Below, piece by piece: positions 514 to 25,390 of a DNA stretch of 64,000 nt (the first letter of the stretch is position 1; each line of letters starts with the position of its first letter). This stretch comes from Natrinema hispanicum (GTDB lineage Archaea > Halobacteriota > Halobacteria > Halobacteriales > Natrialbaceae). The stretch covers positions 1 to 64,000 of the forward strand of contig NZ_SHMP01000004.1 of assembly GCF_004217335.1 (NCBI RefSeq). Reading direction: 5' to 3'. The notes beneath the pieces are model-generated. The model saw only the letters and a program-made list of their open reading frames with translations. It was not told the origin of the DNA and searched no databases. The position numbers and the translations under genes were made by a program.

Positions 514-1326
514 ATGAGCGATGATCCGGAGCCAGCCGTCAACATCAGCGGTGGCACGGCAGGTGGCGGTGTGGCCGCCGAGTTCGATCCAGCGACAGCC
601 GACACCCGCGCAGAGGCGGTCGTCGACCGACTGGGTGAGCTGTACTGGCAGAAGACCTACGGCGGGCAGGACGCCTTTACCTGTCTCGTCCGGACGATTC
701 TGAGCCAGAACACGAGCGATAAGGCGAGCCAGCCGGCTCATGACGCACTGCTCGAGCGCTACGATGGGGACGACGTCGATCTGGCCGAATCGCTCGCCCA
801 TGCCGAGCAGTCAACGCTCGCCGAGACGATCAGCTCGGCGGGGCTGTACAACCAGAAGTCCGAAACCATCATCGATACCGCCGAGTGGGTACTCGAGGAC
901 TTCGGCTCTGCCGCCGCGTTCGATACGTTCGTCAAAGACGAGGCACCGGCAGCGGTTCGCGAGACGCTGCTCGAGGTTCGCGGCGTCGGCCCGAAGACCG
1001 CCGATTGTGTCCTGCTCTTTGCGGGCGGTCGCGGTGGCGTCTTCCCCGTTGACACGCACGTCCACCGGATCTACCGGCGGCTGGGAATCGCGCCGCCGGA
1101 TGCCGATCACGAAACCGTTCGTGAGATCCTCGAGCGCGACGTCCCCGCGGCCAAGTGTGGCTTTGGCCACACGGCGACGATCCAGTTCGGCCGCGAGTAC
1201 TGCACTGCGCGCAAGCCTGCCTGTCTGGACGATCCCGAGGCGTGCCCGATGGCCGATCTCTGTGAGCAGGTCGGCGTCTATCCTGCGACGGGCGAGGTCG
1301 TCGATCCGGCCGACGCTCCCGAGTGA
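514..1326 (+). CDS. nth: Endonuclease III (DNA glycosylase/AP lyase)
   Basis: A 270-residue protein of the HhH-GPD family that removes oxidised pyrimidines from DNA and nicks the abasic site. The helix-hairpin-helix reads LLEVRGVGPKTADCV, with catalytic Lys at about 161. The catalytic Asp is in PVDTHVHR (about 180). Four cysteines at about 230, 237, 244 and 250 form the C-terminal iron-sulfur loop. Their spacing is 6-6-5 rather than the bacterial 6-2-5, so the middle of the loop is longer. The ATG at 514 is preferred over a TTG nine codons upstream. The N-terminus has an acidic Gly/Ala-rich extension of about 25 residues. Confidence 0.93.
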   Translation: MSDDPEPAVNISGGTAGGGVAAEFDPATADTRAEAVVDRLGELYWQKTYGGQDAFTCLVRTILSQNTSDKASQPAHDALLERYDGDDVDLAESLAHAEQSTLAETISSAGLYNQKSETIIDTAEWVLEDFGSAAAFDTFVKDEAPAAVRETLLEVRGVGPKTADCVLLFAGGRGGVFPVDTHVHRIYRRLGIAPPDADHETVREILERDVPAAKCGFGHTATIQFGREYCTARKPACLDDPEACPMADLCEQVGVYPATGEVVDPADAPE

Positions 1327-1410
1327 CCGGGCCGGCGACTCCTCTCGTCACTGTTGGCAGCCGGTCTCGGCTGTCCTCGCTCGAGTCCCCTCCCAGCGGC
1401 TAGTCACTGG

Positions 1411-1418
1411 ATTTATAC
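1411..1418 (+). promoter_or_regulatory. TATA box of bluB (leaderless start)
   Basis: The sequence atttatac is centred about 27 bases before the bluB ATG at 1443, so transcription should start at or next to the start codon. A leaderless mRNA leaves no room for a 5' cobalamin riboswitch. Confidence 0.6.
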
Positions 1419-1442
1419 AATGTTGATTGCAGTTGTGAAACA

Positions 1443-2144
1443 ATGGTTGCATTCACGGATGCGGAACGGGAGGCAGTGTACAAGACGATTTACGCCCGGC
1501 GCGACATCCGGCGGTTTCGTGACGATCCGATTCCCGAGGAGGTGCTCGAGCGACTGCTGCAGGCCGCCCATCACGCACCGAGCGTCGGGTTCTCGCAGCC
1601 GTGGGATCTCGTGGTTATCCGCAACGATGAGACCAAAGCCGAGATCGCGTCGATCGCAGAGCGCGCCATCGCGGCCGCCCGCGAGGGCTACGAGGAACCG
1701 CGCCGTAGCGAGTTCGCGGAGTTGAAACTCGAGGGCATTCGTGAGTCCCCGATCAACATCTGTGTGACCTGCGATCCGACCCGCGGCGCGCCCCACGTGC
1801 TGGGTCGCAATTCGATGAAGCGCACCGACGTCTACTCGACGTGTCTCGCGGTGCAGAACCTCTGGCTAGCGGCTCGCGCGGAAGGCGTCGGCGTCGGCTG
1901 GGTGAGCGTCCTCTATCCCTACGAGGTTCAGGGGGTGCTCGACATTCCGCCACACGTCAAGCCGATCGCGTATCTCTGTCTCGGCTATCCGGAAGACGGC
2001 TTCCCCGAAGAACCCGTGCTTCAGCAGGAAGGATGGCGTGAGCGACTCGATATGGAGACGCTCGTCCACGAAGAGCGCTGGGACGGAGACGAGTCGATAG
2101 CGGCCGATGGCGAAGCGGCCACCTCATCGAACAACAGTCGGTAA
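1443..2144 (+). CDS. bluB: 5,6-dimethylbenzimidazole synthase (BluB)
   Basis: A 233-residue flavoprotein of the nitroreductase fold. BluB uses O2 to fragment FMNH2 into 5,6-dimethylbenzimidazole, the lower ligand of cobalamin. Family hallmarks are RRDIRRFRDDPIPEEVLERLLQ-type sequence near residues 19-40, AAHHAPSVGFSQPWD (about 41-55), LEGIRESPINICVTCDPTRG in the middle, and a C-terminal NLWLAARAEGVGVGWVSVL segment. These separate BluB from generic nitroreductases. The last 20 or so residues are an acidic, low-complexity tail. A PduO-type cobalamin adenosyltransferase lies about 39 kb away in the window. Confidence 0.9.
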   Translation: MVAFTDAEREAVYKTIYARRDIRRFRDDPIPEEVLERLLQAAHHAPSVGFSQPWDLVVIRNDETKAEIASIAERAIAAAREGYEEPRRSEFAELKLEGIRESPINICVTCDPTRGAPHVLGRNSMKRTDVYSTCLAVQNLWLAARAEGVGVGWVSVLYPYEVQGVLDIPPHVKPIAYLCLGYPEDGFPEEPVLQQEGWRERLDMETLVHEERWDGDESIAADGEAATSSNNSR

Positions 2145-2261
2145 CTCCCTGCTCGAGATTCTGAGCGACTTCGAACTCGATTGGTCATCCGCGTGGCCGA
2201 CTCGAGCGCGCGCCTCGATCAAGTGGCGAGCGCTCGAGTCACGGGGGAGGGCAGGCCGACC

Positions 2262-2356
2262 GCACGGCGCGCGAACCTGCGCGCCGTGCCAATGTCGCCC
2301 TAGTGGCCTGCGGAAATCTTCGATTTCCGGGCGACCGGAGCGCCTGGCGCTCCGGT
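2262..2356. terminator. Three consecutive hairpins between convergent genes
   Basis: Three perfect inverted repeats sit in the gap between the 3' ends of bluB and fttA. Stem 1 has 11-bp arms (2262-2272 and 2279-2289) with loop gaacct. Stem 2 has 7-bp arms (2311-2317 and 2323-2329) with loop cttcg. Stem 3 has 11-bp arms (2334-2344 and 2346-2356) around one base. They may form a two-way terminator or be a repeated palindromic element. No long T-run follows them. Confidence 0.45.
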
Positions 2357-2406
2357 AGACATTGAAAGGGCGAGTGAGGTCTGTCAAGACCGAACGAGGG
2401 CTTTCT

Positions 2407-4341
2407 TTAGAGGAAACGGAAGGTTTCCAGATTCTTCGGCGCGAAGGTGCGCATGTCGTAGTTGTGATAGAGCGCACTCGAGAGGTCCTGTGTGGAGCGT
2501 TCGTCGCCGTGGACACAGAGGACCTTCTCGGGACGTGGGTTCATCGTTTTGACGAAGTTCTCGAGGCCGGCGCGGTCGGCGTGGCCGGAGAAGCCATCGA
2601 CGGTTTCGACGTCCATATTTAGCGAGAGGGTGCCGCGGCCGCCGCCGTTGCCCATGGCACCGACTTCGCTGGTCGGAATCTCGTCCCAACCGTTCTGAAT
2701 GCGTCGGCCGAGGGTTCCCTGGGCCTGATAGCCGACGAAGACGAGCGTCGAGTCCGGGTCAGGGCCGATATGCGAGAGCCAGGACATGATCGGGCCGCCG
2801 GTGACCATCCCTGAAGTCGAGAGGATGATACAGGAGTCGCCGTCGGCGACGTCCTGGCGTTCTTCCTCGCCGCCGTCGATGTGGTTGAATTCCTCGGCGA
2901 GGAAGGGGTTTTCGTCCTCATGGAAGATGCGGTCGCGCAGGTCGTCACGGAGGTATTCGGGGTAGGTGGTGTGGATCGCCGTCGCCTCCCAGATCATGCC
3001 GTCTAAGTGGACCGGCATCGAGGGGATGTCGCCGTTGCGCATCGCCTCCTCTAAGACGAGCATGATTTCTTGGGAGCGGCCGACCGCGAACGCCGGAATG
3101 ACGACCTTGCCACCCTGCTCGTAGGTCTCGTTGATGACTTCCTTGAGTCTCTCTTCGGAGTCCTGCTGGTCGGTCTGGTAGTCGTTGCGACCGCCGTAGG
3201 TCGACTCCATCACGAGCGTTTCGACCCGCGGGAAGTCGTTGGTCGCGCCGTTGAACAGGCGCGTGTCCTCGTAGTGAATGTCGCCGGAGAAGGCGACGTT
3301 GTAGAGGCCGTCACCGATGTGGAAGTGCGAGACGGCCGAGCCGAGGATGTGGCCGGCGTTGTGGAGGGTGAGTTTGACGTCCGGTGCGATGTCGGTGACG
3401 TCGCCATACTCGAGCGGGATGGTGTGTTTGATCGCTTCGCGGACCTGTTCGCTCTCGTAGGGTGGGCTGCGGCCTTCTTTGGCCGCGACGTCGAGATAGT
3501 CGAGGGTCAGCAGGCCCATCAGGTCCCGTGTGGGTTCGGTACAGTAGATCGGGCCGTCGTAGCCGTACTTGAACAGGAGCGGAATGAGCGCGGAGTGGTC
3601 GAGGTGGGCGTGGGTGAGGACGACGGCGTCGATGGTCTGGGGGCCAGCGCCGAGTGCCTCGGGTGCGTGGAGATAGGGCACTTCGCCTTCCGCGCCGGGT
3701 TTATCACCGCAGTCGATGAGGATGCGGGTTTCGGGCGTCGAGAGAATAAACGACGCGCGACCGACTTCACGACAGCAACCCAGTGTGGTGATGCGGACGT
3801 ACTCGTCGTCGGACATCTCCTCGCGGTGGATCTGTCGGCCGACCTTCTCCAAGATGTCTCGGCGCTCGTCGCGTTCCTGTTTGAGAAAACTCCGGACGTT
3901 CGAGACGGTCGAAGATTCGATCGGCGGGGTACGGACGACTTCGGGCGTCCAGCCGACGTTTTTCGTGATTTCGCGGAGCGTCGAGCCGTGACGGCCGATC
4001 ACCATGCCGGGCTTTTCGGCCTCGATGACGACTTCGCCGGTATCGGCGTGGAAATCGAGATCGGTCACCCCGGCTTCGTCGGGAATAACGCCCATGATCT
4101 CCTCGCGGGCCTGCTCGGGTCGCGAGAGAACGCTTGGGTCGGGCCGGACGGTGATCCGCTTGCGAAGCTTGCTCGCGAGCTGTCGGATGAGATCGCCCTG
4201 CTGGGCAAACTTTTTCGGATCGCGAGTGTAGACCACCAGTTCGGGGCCTTCGTATTTCACCGAGGAGACCGAGATATCGCTCGGTAACTCGCTCGTGATC
4301 TGTGCTTTGAGATCGTCGAGTTGCTGCTCTACAGTGCTCAT
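2407..4341 (-). CDS. fttA: Archaeal transcription termination nuclease FttA (aCPSF1)
   Basis: A 644-residue beta-CASP ribonuclease homologous to eukaryotic CPSF73. In archaea it cleaves nascent RNA 3' ends and causes factor-dependent transcription termination. Residues 1 to about 145 hold the two KH-type RNA-binding domains, including VIGRHGS (114-120). The metallo-beta-lactamase domain starts near 183 and carries the zinc motif HAHLDH (244-249). Beta-CASP sequence follows (VVIPAFAVGRSQEIMLVLEEA, SGMVTGG, FSGHADRAGL, CVHGDE). Length and domain order match the family. The start at 4341 keeps the complete KH region. It is convergent with bluB. Confidence 0.95.
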   Translation of the reverse strand: MSTVEQQLDDLKAQITSELPSDISVSSVKYEGPELVVYTRDPKKFAQQGDLIRQLASKLRKRITVRPDPSVLSRPEQAREEIMGVIPDEAGVTDLDFHADTGEVVIEAEKPGMVIGRHGSTLREITKNVGWTPEVVRTPPIESSTVSNVRSFLKQERDERRDILEKVGRQIHREEMSDDEYVRITTLGCCREVGRASFILSTPETRILIDCGDKPGAEGEVPYLHAPEALGAGPQTIDAVVLTHAHLDHSALIPLLFKYGYDGPIYCTEPTRDLMGLLTLDYLDVAAKEGRSPPYESEQVREAIKHTIPLEYGDVTDIAPDVKLTLHNAGHILGSAVSHFHIGDGLYNVAFSGDIHYEDTRLFNGATNDFPRVETLVMESTYGGRNDYQTDQQDSEERLKEVINETYEQGGKVVIPAFAVGRSQEIMLVLEEAMRNGDIPSMPVHLDGMIWEATAIHTTYPEYLRDDLRDRIFHEDENPFLAEEFNHIDGGEEERQDVADGDSCIILSTSGMVTGGPIMSWLSHIGPDPDSTLVFVGYQAQGTLGRRIQNGWDEIPTSEVGAMGNGGGRGTLSLNMDVETVDGFSGHADRAGLENFVKTMNPRPEKVLCVHGDERSTQDLSSALYHNYDMRTFAPKNLETFRFL

Positions 4342-17878: not shown

Positions 17879-18081
17879 AGGTCTCCACGGACTGGCGCAG
17901 TCCCCGTCTGGAGGCGTCGCAAGCAACAGTCGCTGTTCGTTCGGGATCGTCCTGTGACTATGTGGGAAACTCGAGTTTTCGGCTCGAGTTGCTCTGTTGC
18001 AGCGTCGAATAGCACCAGTTTCAGCCTTGTTCTCGGCTGAATTCCGTGAGACTTGTGGGGAATTGGACGCCGTCTGGCGAT

Positions 18082-18897
18082 ATGAGGTCGAAACGACCGA
18101 TCATACGGCAGTGTAAGAATCTTGCCAAACAGCACGTGGATAACCCTGACGAACCCGCTGCGCCGGACGGCGCCAGCGGGTTCGCCGAGTGGGCTCAGAT
18201 CGCGTTTATCCTCTTGCATGCGGAACTCGACAAAGATTTCCGAGAGACTGAAGCATGGTTCAATGACTCCAGAGCCATCCGTGAAGAGCTCAACATCGAC
18301 AAATCGCCGGATCACACCACGCTCTGTCGATGGGAGCAACAGGTCGACATGCGTGAGCTCCGCAGCCTGCTCCGCCGCAGTGCGGAGCAGGCTGGCTGGT
18401 CGGGAACAGCAGCAATCGACGCCAGTGGCTTCCAGCGAGATCAGACCAGCTATCATTACCGGAATCGTGCTGGCTTCTCGTTTCATAAGCTGAAGACGAC
18501 GGTTTTGGTCGATACAGAGTCACTGGCGATCAAAGACGTTCATTTCACGACGAAGCGCAAGTGGGACGGACACATCGGCTTGCAGGTCTATCGGCGCAAC
18601 GCCGAAGACCTGCAAGAGTTCCTTGCAGATGCGAACTATTCGTGGTCAGATCTCAGAGAGGAGTGTCGCGCTGGCGCGACACGACCGCTAATCAAGCACA
18701 AGGAGCACAATGCGCTGAAGAAAGCGCATAACGCTCGGATGGACGAAGATCTGTACCATCAGCGGACACTGAGTGAGACTGCGTTCTCACTACTGAAGGA
18801 TGACGGTGAGAAGTTACGCTCTCGGAGCTGGCACGGCCAGTTCCGAGAGCTCACGCGCAAGTGTATCGTGCATAACCTATCGCAGGCGGCGAGTTAG
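18082..18897 (+). CDS. IS5 family transposase
   Basis: A 271-residue DDE transposase. Candidate catalytic positions are Asp in AAIDASGFQRDQ, Asp in LADANYSWSDL, and Glu in RTLSETAFSLLKDDGEKLRS near the C-terminus. The domain starts with SGFAEWAQIAFILLHAELDK, as in halobacterial IS5-type elements. ATG at 18082 is preferred over the GTG-like start 12 codons upstream. The frame is intact, so the protein could be active. A 12-bp-arm hairpin encloses its stop codon. Confidence 0.9.
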   Translation: MRSKRPIIRQCKNLAKQHVDNPDEPAAPDGASGFAEWAQIAFILLHAELDKDFRETEAWFNDSRAIREELNIDKSPDHTTLCRWEQQVDMRELRSLLRRSAEQAGWSGTAAIDASGFQRDQTSYHYRNRAGFSFHKLKTTVLVDTESLAIKDVHFTTKRKWDGHIGLQVYRRNAEDLQEFLADANYSWSDLREECRAGATRPLIKHKEHNALKKAHNARMDEDLYHQRTLSETAFSLLKDDGEKLRSRSWHGQFRELTRKCIVHNLSQAAS

Positions 18898-22495: not shown

Positions 22496-22749
22496 TGGTC
22501 TGTCCGTGTGTCTCCGCTGCACCAGCAAAAGTGTACGGTTGTAGTCGAATATCCTTTCAATCGAAAACATACGTCGGCAAACCCGGCAGATCACGTCTGA
22601 CGGTATCCTGACCGAAAATACACTCATCGTGTGTCACAACGCGATCGGCTCGGCAGCCACCCGCCGCTCGTTCGACACCGCGATTCGAGACGCCGGCCAT
22701 CGATATTCTAACCACAACATTTGTACGACAGGCATCACTGGCATTCGGT

Positions 22750-23373
22750 ATGACTGACGGCTCGAGTCGCCGCCAAACCAAAGTCGAGCGCGTGATAGAC
22801 GAGTACGACCTCGAGTCGTGGGGTGACCGTCTCGAGGCGAAATGGGTCGGCGACGGGACGGAGCGAACGAGTCTTCGCGATCTTGCAGCCGAGTTCAACA
22901 GGGCGGTCCTTCGGGCAGCCGTCCGCGATGCTGGCGGCTCGATGGTCGAGTCCGACATCGAAACCCTCTACCGGACGCTGACTGACGACGACGTCTCCCG
23001 CTCCGAGACGGTCAGAAAGCGCCGTGAACTGGAACGAACGGGTGTCGATATCGATGCGGTCAGTTCGGACTTCGTCACGCATCAAACGATCTATACGTAC
23101 CTGACGAACGTCCGCAATGCATCGCTTCCCGAAGCGGACACCGACGACCGACTCGAGCGAAAGACCGAGACCGTCCAGCGACTCGCCGGTCGAACGCAAG
23201 TCGTCACCGAATCCACACTCGAGGAGTTAGGCAATGCAGGCGAGATCGCGGACCGAGACTACGAGGTATTCGTCGACGTCCGTGCGATCTGTGGCAACTG
23301 TGGGGCTGATTACCCGATCGCGACACTGCTCGATCAGGGTGACTGCGACTGTGAGATCGCCGACGGCTCGTAG
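22750..23373 (+). CDS. rdfA: Rod-determining factor RdfA
   Basis: A 207-residue haloarchaeal protein that matches RdfA, a factor needed for rod-cell formation in Haloferax volcanii. Recognisable features are the N-terminal KVERVIDEYDLESWGDRLEA plus the TSLRDLAAEFNRAVL segment. The middle is DDVSRSETVRKRRELERTGV, DIDAVSSDFVTHQTIYTYLT, then NVR. The C-terminus is a short cysteine cluster (CGNCGADY and CDCEI) that may bind zinc. The first part looks like a winged-helix or antitoxin-like regulator (inferred). It is followed after 64 bases by an SMC-like gene with its own promoter, a pairing I believe is recurrent in haloarchaea. Confidence 0.8.
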   Translation: MTDGSSRRQTKVERVIDEYDLESWGDRLEAKWVGDGTERTSLRDLAAEFNRAVLRAAVRDAGGSMVESDIETLYRTLTDDDVSRSETVRKRRELERTGVDIDAVSSDFVTHQTIYTYLTNVRNASLPEADTDDRLERKTETVQRLAGRTQVVTESTLEELGNAGEIADRDYEVFVDVRAICGNCGADYPIATLLDQGDCDCEIADGS

Positions 23374-23408
23374 CGTGAGGCAGCCGGGGTTCCTGTAACC
23401 AAATAACA

Positions 23409-23416
23409 TTTATACT
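23409..23416 (+). promoter_or_regulatory. TATA box of the SMC-related gene (leaderless)
   Basis: The sequence tttatact is centred 26 bases before the GTG at 23438, so transcription should begin at the start codon. This supports the GTG start and an SMC gene that can be expressed independently of rdfA. Confidence 0.6.
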
Positions 23417-23437
23417 GGCCGGCGAGAACCATCGATC

Positions 23438-25390
23438 GTGTCATCTCCAGCGTCAGTCTCCTCCTCGATTACCGTTCTGGCGGAGAATATCGGCGGTATC
23501 GACAGTACCGAGGTCACACTTACACCCGGTGTAAACGTGTTGACTGGCCGGAACGCGACGAACCGAACGTCGTTTCTCCAGACGATCATGGCGGCGCTGG
23601 GGAGCCGTCAGACCTCGCTCAAAGGTGACGCAGACGCCGGTCGCGTCGAACTGACACTCGACGGTCGGCAGTACACGCGTACACTCGAGCGATGCAACGG
23701 CGAGGTCGTCTTTGACGGCGAGCCCTATCTCGACGATCCCGAGCTTGCTGATCTCTTTGCCTTCCAACTCGAGTCCAACGAAGCACGCCGCGCCGTCAGA
23801 AGCGGTGATGACCTTCGCGAACTCATCATGCGCCCGATCGATACGGACGAGATCGAGGCCGAAATCGACTCCCTCGAGGCTGAAAAACGCGACCTCGATG
23901 ACCGGCTCGAACACCTCGCCCAGCTCGAAACCGACCTTCCCGGGCTCGAAGAAGAACGGACCGCTCTCGACGACGAGATCGAGTCTGTAACCGACCGGAT
24001 CTCCGCTCTCGAAACCGAACTCGACGAGTTCGAGGTCGACATCGAGGCGAGCCGCGCCCGGAAAGACGCGATCGAGTCGGCGTTTGCCGACCTGCAGGCG
24101 GCGCGAACCGAACTCGAGTCCATCGAGTACGATCTCGAGACCGAACGGGAGAGTTACGCCGAACTCGAAGCCGAACGCGACGAGCTGCAGGCGGAACTGG
24201 CCACCCTCGACGACGAGCAGCCATCGCCGGATCGACTCGAGGGACGGATTCAGGAGCTTCGCGCTCGGAAGCGGTCGCTCGATACGACCGTCAGCGAACT
24301 GCAGAGTGTGATCCGGTTCAACGAGGACCGTCTCACAGACGATGGCGTCGAGATCGAACTCGAGGAAGCAGCTGACTCGGAGGCCAAGACCGACGGCGAC
24401 GTCACCGAGCAACTCCTCGCCGATGACGACGTCGTCTGCTGGACGTGTGGCTCACACGTCGATCGCGGCCGGATCGAGTCGACGCTCGAGCGGCTCCGGT
24501 CGCTCCGCCACCACAAACTCGAGGAACGGAGCGAGTTGCAGGCACAGATCGACGACCTCACGAGCCGCCGGAAAGCGCTTCGCGAGCGATCACAACGACG
24601 AGGCGAGATCGAAACGCGGCTCTCGGCGATCGAGGACGACCTCGAGCGTCGACAGCACCGCATCGAGGAACTCGAGGCCGAACGCGACGAACAGCGAGCC
24701 CGCATCGACGACCTCGAATCGGACGCCGACACGTTCGAGGACGCCGAGTATAGCGACATCATCGAGACCCACCGCGAACTGAACCGCCTCGAACTCGAAC
24801 GCGAGAGTCTCGAGACCGAACGCGACGAGGTGCAGGCCCGAATCGACGAGATCGAGGCCACACTCGCAGACCGACACGACCTCGAGGATCGACGCGAGAC
24901 CGTCGAGGAAGCCCTCACCGAGTGTCGGACCCGCGTCGACCGGCTCGAAGAAACCGCCGTCGATGCGTTCAACGAGCACATGGACTCGATTCTCTCGCTG
25001 CTCGAGTACGAGAACCTCGATCGCATCTGGATCGACCGCCGCGAGAAGACGGTTCGTGAGGGTCGTCAGACGGTCACGAAAACGGCGTTCGATCTACACA
25101 TCGTCCGATCGACCGCGGATGGGACGAGCTACGAGGACACGATCGATCACCTCTCGGAGAGCGAGCGCGAGGTCACGGGCCTGGTCGTTGCACTCGCCGG
25201 CTATCTGGTTCACGATGTCTACGACGTCGTTCCGTTCATGCTACTCGATTCGCTCGAGGCGATCGATGCGGATCGGATCGCCGCCCTCGTCGAATACCTT
25301 GAGGACTACGCCGACTGTCTCGTCGTCGCCTTGCTCCGTGAGGACGCCGAAGCGCTCCCGGACTCGTATTCGTACGTGCGGGAGATATAG
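23438..25390 (+). CDS. Archaea-specific SMC-related protein
   Basis: A 650-residue SMC/Rad50-like ATPase. Residues 11-60 form the head N-lobe with a P-loop-like GRNATNRTS (37-45) in which Arg replaces the usual Lys. Long charged coiled coils run about 135-330 and 345-535. Between them is CWTC (Cys334, Cys337), a zinc-hook motif. The C-lobe has an ABC-signature-like HLSESEREVTGLVVALAGY and a Walker-B-like VPFMLLDSLEAID. Such proteins are annotated as archaea-specific SMC-related and travel with rdfA. The altered P-loop and D-S in place of D-E raise the possibility of weak or altered ATPase activity. GTG start. Confidence 0.85.
   Translation: MSSPASVSSSITVLAENIGGIDSTEVTLTPGVNVLTGRNATNRTSFLQTIMAALGSRQTSLKGDADAGRVELTLDGRQYTRTLERCNGEVVFDGEPYLDDPELADLFAFQLESNEARRAVRSGDDLRELIMRPIDTDEIEAEIDSLEAEKRDLDDRLEHLAQLETDLPGLEEERTALDDEIESVTDRISALETELDEFEVDIEASRARKDAIESAFADLQAARTELESIEYDLETERESYAELEAERDELQAELATLDDEQPSPDRLEGRIQELRARKRSLDTTVSELQSVIRFNEDRLTDDGVEIELEEAADSEAKTDGDVTEQLLADDDVVCWTCGSHVDRGRIESTLERLRSLRHHKLEERSELQAQIDDLTSRRKALRERSQRRGEIETRLSAIEDDLERRQHRIEELEAERDEQRARIDDLESDADTFEDAEYSDIIETHRELNRLELERESLETERDEVQARIDEIEATLADRHDLEDRRETVEEALTECRTRVDRLEETAVDAFNEHMDSILSLLEYENLDRIWIDRREKTVREGRQTVTKTAFDLHIVRSTADGTSYEDTIDHLSESEREVTGLVVALAGYLVHDVYDVVPFMLLDSLEAIDADRIAALVEYLEDYADCLVVALLREDAEALPDSYSYVREI

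Follow-up and report, generated by a model that had tools for sequence, protein, structure and literature searches.

An altered yet invariant ATPase site in the SMC-like partner of the rod-determining factor RdfA in Haloarchaea

The locus considered here lies in a window of 64,000 nucleotides at the start of contig NZ_SHMP01000004.1 of Natrinema hispanicum (assembly GCF_004217335.1), where two genes are separated by a gap of 64 bp (Table 1). The first encodes RdfA, matching the Pfam family PF21811 over its full length (251.6 bits against a gathering score of 27). The second encodes an archaea-specific SMC-related protein (ASRP, also called Sph), matching the NCBIfam family NF045487 over the complete profile (positions 1-593 of 593), with a score of 697.7 bits where the curated cutoff is 300. 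The initial annotation had placed RdfA beside an SMC-like protein, and the two family assignments bear this out. The TATA-like boxes in front of the two start codons suggest separate leaderless promoters for rdfA and asrp. The orthologues of N. hispanicum and N. limicola are 95-97% identical, and the N. hispanicum genome contains a second rdfA-asrp pair on another contig (C7). The Natrinema pair occupies a fixed chromosomal site adjoining maeB; on the far side of maeB, some 4 kb before the pair, comes a DDE transposase (PF01609, window positions 18046-18897).

Table 1. Genes and sequence features of the rdfA-asrp locus, in window coordinates
Feature	Position	Strand	Detail
TATA-like box	22720..22725	+	putative, read from the sequence; ~27 nt upstream of rdfA ATG
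rdfA, rod-determining factor A	22750..23373	+	207 aa; PF21811, residues 10-202
RdfA putative zinc ribbon CxxC...CxC	23290..23352	+	C181, C184, C199, C201; Cys conservation
TTTATA box	23409..23414	+	putative, read from the sequence; ~27 nt upstream of asrp GTG
asrp/sph, archaea-specific SMC-related protein	23438..25390	+	650 aa; GTG start; NF045487
Degenerate Walker A GRNATNRTS	23546..23572	+	residues 37-45; Lys -> Arg43, preceding Gly -> Asn42
Zinc hook CWTC	24437..24448	+	C334-C337; invariant 103/103
ABC signature LSESE	25151..25165	+	L572-E576; invariant 103/103
Walker B and D-loop FMLLDSLEAID	25235..25267	+	D604, then Ser605 replacing the catalytic Glu

A canonical ATPase of the SMC superfamily has a Walker A motif of the form GxxxxGK[ST] and a catalytic Glu after the Asp of Walker B. 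Sph has the layout of an ASRP, with a zinc hook at the hinge (residues 334-337) and with Walker A (37-45) and Walker B (600-605) at the two ends, and it departs from the canonical ATPase at Asn42-Arg43 and at Ser605. The motifs that the initial annotation had read, namely GRNATNRTS, CWTC, the C-terminal signature and the Glu-to-Ser replacement, are all present, and the P-loop is more altered than was claimed, Asn42 being changed too. The AlphaFold2 model of Sph has a pLDDT of 86.6, and its best Foldseek matches are the heads of Rad50, Smc5/6, MukB and Lamassu LmuB; a sequence search of the PDB chains at an E-value of 1e-5 gives no match. The model of RdfA (pLDDT 92.6) has helices throughout and a small zinc-ribbon-like C-terminal end, whose four Cys residues are each kept in 87-95% of 83 RdfA sequences, the methanogen ones included. 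A fold search of RdfA against the PDB returns nothing below an E-value of 0.48. We also considered RdfA as a kleisin or KITE protein; this assignment is rejected on the lack of a fold match and on an HHalign probability of 0.8% to ScpB.

Is the unusual ATPase site a peculiarity of this one gene? The Arg-bearing motif NATNRTS is found in 105 of 105 Sph-type ASRPs, and Ser follows the Asp after the Walker B strand in all 103 readable sequences, with the zinc hook and the signature equally invariant and with E607 and D610 near Walker B invariant as well. A set from named genomes has the altered motifs in 79 of 80 sequences. A DNA-level search of 391 haloarchaeal genomes finds NATN-R-TS encoded in 300 and NATN-K-TS in none. 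Because the residues are invariant in the related proteins and the Lys form is absent at the DNA level, a sequencing error or chance is ruled out as the source of the odd P-loop. The motif changes are a fixed signature of the haloarchaeal clade rather than a local oddity; "altered" is correct relative to textbook SMC proteins, but within the haloarchaeal Sph clade these motifs are the norm. With R43 and S605 fixed and the other motifs invariant, selection appears to act on the altered site, which argues against decay. In the same genus, a close orthologue of the window ASRP (L123 in genome G096, 1292-3233) is split in two frames, through either gene breakage or an error in sequencing.

A second haloarchaeal class, including Sph1 of H. 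salinarum, has AxN[WF]QGKSS with D-G or D-R, while H. salinarum Sph2 has GRNATGRTS with D-S and one further ASRP (L221) has GSNASNKSS with D-A. The Glu position is therefore occupied by Ser in the Sph2-4 types, by Gly or Arg in the Sph1 type and by Ala in L221, and D-E is found in none of the haloarchaeal ASRPs read, the Lys-bearing Sph1 class included. Canonical motifs in relatives, which the initial annotation would have counted against its reading, are absent from the Sph clade of the window and present only in methanogens; the Sph1 class keeps the Lys, not the Glu.

The pairing of the two genes is widespread. Among 145 haloarchaeal genomes, with ASRP presence called at E<=1e-70, RdfA occurs in 125 and ASRP in 123; both are present in 123 genomes, RdfA alone in 2 and neither in 20, and no genome of the 145 has ASRP without RdfA. 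A survey of the neighbourhoods of rdfA homologues, as had been proposed with the idea that rare adjacency would speak against the pair, finds ASRP within about 3 kb at 91 of the 120 fetched RdfA loci. These 91 loci comprise 57 with the order rdfA-asrp, 12 with asrp-rdfA, 16 convergent and 6 divergent. When 80 named loci are fetched by ASRP instead, RdfA is nearby in 63. Linkage is nonetheless incomplete: 29 of the 120 RdfA genes (L084, L091, L105 and 26 others) and 17 of the 80 ASRP genes stand alone over a distance of about 3 kb. In the RdfA tree, one subgroup from the Natrialbaceae is made up entirely of RdfA genes orphaned in this way.

Over the ASRP tree of 154 pairs the orientation changes at least 17 times with the adjacency kept. 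The distance matrices of RdfA and ASRP correlate with r=0.92 for the 154 pairs (permutation maximum 0.19) and with r=0.78 for a core set without the divergent clades (permutation maximum 0.09). In multi-pair genomes all 23 comparisons favour the adjacent partner over its paralogue; they include 3 near-ties and are non-independent. Chance adjacency is rejected on the frequency of pairing, the partner fit and the persistence of adjacency through the orientation changes. The co-evolution signal of such neighbours could also come from joint transfer or linked inheritance without contact. The commonest neighbour of the pair is an IclR-family regulator (43 of 154 pair loci, e.g., L309:5594-6412); its density per 100 kb of flank is about 6.7 at pairs versus 5.9 at unpaired RdfA, and given this similarity we claim no pair-specific link to IclR.

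We turn to the methanogens, where an RdfA profile search of 112 Methanosarcinaceae genomes gives five matches, each beside an ASRP; a sixth methanogen ASRP (L236) has an RdfA-like neighbour with a weaker match. All six of these ASRPs have the canonical GKT and LDE, and two of the pairs are borne on plasmids (pMETEV01 of Methanohalobium evestigatum and pMETHO01 of Methanomethylovorans hollandica). In 6 of 6 loci (L203, L204, L228-L230, L236) asrp, rdfA or its relative, and a winged-helix gene stand in a row. This third gene encodes a protein of about 160 aa and overlaps or abuts the 3' side of rdfA at every one of the loci. Its identification as ScpB is not supported (19% probability over 29 columns), and among proteins of solved structure it comes closest in sequence to MarR-type regulators. 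A relative of the winged-helix gene was sought in the haloarchaeal loci fetched, and none was found. The more distant ASRPs (L205-L210) have no adjoining RdfA. In the ASRP tree, a quick tree with long branches, the canonical outgroups and the methanogen clade (GKT and DE) fall outside the haloarchaeal clade (SH-aLRT 95). Given this placement, the simplest reading of the sequences is a loss of the catalytic Glu along the haloarchaeal branch, with the Walker A Lys lost in the Sph2-4 types. The Lys/Arg distribution needs two changes on the tree, which implies either a single reversal or a second origin. An alternative history, with gene transfer between haloarchaea and halophilic methanogens, is conceivable.

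The pairing and the link to cell shape were already known before this analysis. In Haloferax, rdfA (HVO_2174) and sph3 (HVO_2175) are adjacent and deletion of either gives disk-only, non-motile cells (PMC10869688, 2024); the same work named RdfA and found that 42 of 54 RdfA proteins from 24 genomes neighbour an SMC-like protein. In gene-conversion assays, survival falls when sph1, sph2, sph3 or sph4 is deleted; of the four, only the sph2 deletion is reported to give rods, and the sph2/sph4 double deletion was unobtainable (PMC11276520). The shape phenotypes and the survival loss together give Haloferax backing to a link between cell shape and chromosome biology. ASRPs were defined, and their zinc hook reported, in a study that credits them with Walker A and B and finds no consensus neighbour, and in which the coalescin ClsN, a distant ASRP, organises the chromosomes of Sulfolobus (PMC9389158). 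The earlier view of the pair as not well described is half right, as the adjacency and the knockouts date from the 2024 paper. No mention of the Lys-to-Arg and Glu-to-Ser changes was found in the literature searched, outside of which lie the older subscription papers. A more recent paper reports that the regulator CsmR controls sph3/rdfA and calls Sph3 disk-promoting (PMC13286277, 2026), a description that conflicts with the two knockout papers, where deletion of sph3 abolishes rods.

Starting from the observed motifs, their conservation, the pairing and the co-evolution, and from the shape phenotypes demonstrated by others in Haloferax, we infer impaired hydrolysis, a contact between RdfA and Sph, and a scaffold mode of action. 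The reading that we favour, with modest confidence, is that Sph was once an ATP-hydrolysing SMC-like machine, became hydrolysis-impaired in Haloarchaea and is now an RdfA-controlled clamp or scaffold for the rod state. Sph would be a Rad50-like zinc-hook coiled-coil protein, with a head that lacks the catalytic Glu and, in the clade of the window, the Walker A Lys. Nucleotide or another phosphate ligand bound by Sph would join two heads, most likely with poor or no hydrolysis, and the zinc hook together with the engaged heads would form a stable clamp or scaffold instead of a cycling motor. An active site that is altered yet invariant points to a function that has been kept. RdfA would be the dedicated partner of Sph, probably stabilising, releasing or positioning its assembly, and the two proteins together would commit cells to rods. 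Some hydrolysis may persist, since Arg is able to contact phosphate and the conserved E607 or D610 is a potential alternative base, and a role on DNA is possible in view of the gene-conversion defects of the sph1-4 deletions (PMC11276520).

How do other explanations compare? Sph could still be an active ATPase that organises chromosomes or acts in recombination, with Arg43 and another acidic residue as substitutes and with the effect on shape arising indirectly through the state of the chromosome. A site so invariant must be in use, E607 and D610 are at hand, the gene-conversion survival and the unobtainable double deletion (PMC11276520) fit such a role, and ClsN provides a precedent in a distant ASRP (PMC9389158). 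We regard this as possible though on the unlikely side, since the Sph2-4 types have two catalytic residues replaced at once and none of the haloarchaeal classes read retains the Glu. Less probably, the pair is a cassette for replicon maintenance that belonged to haloarchaeal megaplasmids and chromids before the chromosome recruited it. ASRP is found on 132 records of a plasmid set without Haloferax pHV3 and pHV4, the two named methanogen pairs for which a closed record exists are on plasmids, and both pairs of H. salinarum are on pNRC200; against this, the Natrinema pair is fixed in the chromosome beside maeB, and the Haloferax deletions give shape and motility phenotypes, a growth defect not being reported (PMC10869688).

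The least probable explanation, and one we hold to be very improbable, is the defence module of a regulator and an SMC-like ATPase that the initial annotation had raised as one option; such an anti-virus system would be akin to Wadjet or Lamassu. Lamassu LmuB and JetC are indeed among the Foldseek neighbours of the Sph head, and the occurrence of the pair is patchy and multi-copy. The PADLOC matches, however, are low-scoring and mostly to coiled-coil or P-loop stretches, the best being a partial coiled-coil match of 54.8 bits, and PADLOC gives no match to RdfA. The neighbours of the pair are metabolic, with no nuclease or other effector adjoining, and neither RdfA nor ASRP is found in phage records. 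The pair is near-universal (123 of 145 genomes), sits at a fixed site beside maeB in Natrinema and has a known shape phenotype. Belonging to none of the Wadjet JetC, Lamassu LmuB or DruC families with an accompanying effector, it is rejected as a defence system.

The clamp or scaffold reading can be extended to the origin of the pair, in a form that we offer as speculative and rather doubtful. The row of asrp, rdfA and the winged-helix gene would be the ancestral form of a previously unrecognised SMC-type complex, in which RdfA represents a non-SMC subunit of a new class. The Haloarchaea would have retained Sph and RdfA but dropped the third gene and the hydrolysis, yielding a static shape scaffold that diversified as many plasmid and chromosome paralogues. 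Few genes are known to be necessary for rods in pleomorphic archaea, and those for Sph and RdfA belong to them. If the Sph heads cannot hydrolyse ATP, a motor of the SMC family would, across an entire class of archaea, have become a scaffold or switch. The named residues, and the canonical versions in the methanogens, make the question of motor versus scaffold directly testable by residue swaps.

Among the known systems, the RdfA-Sph3 pair of Haloferax volcanii has the same two families, the adjacency and the rdfA-then-sph order of the window, in another species and copy, a likeness at the family level. The other ASRPs (Sph1 and Sph2 of Halobacterium, ClsN of Sulfolobus) share with the window Sph the family NF045487, the zinc hook and the layout of Walker and signature motifs, while the text of the ASRP account (PMC9389158) is without the Lys-to-Arg and Glu-to-Ser changes that the window Sph has. 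Rad50, the best Foldseek match, resembles Sph in its zinc hook and ABC head; Sph differs in having no adjoining Mre11, a short coiled coil and degenerate catalytic residues. In the SMC-kleisin-KITE complexes the partners are ScpA/ScpB-like, whereas RdfA has neither a PDB fold match below an E-value of 0.48 nor a profile match to ScpB. Arcadin-4 of the Thermoproteales is, like Sph, an SMC-like protein tied in the literature to cell shape or the cytoskeleton, but it is grouped with Rad50 and not with the ASRPs (PMC9389158).
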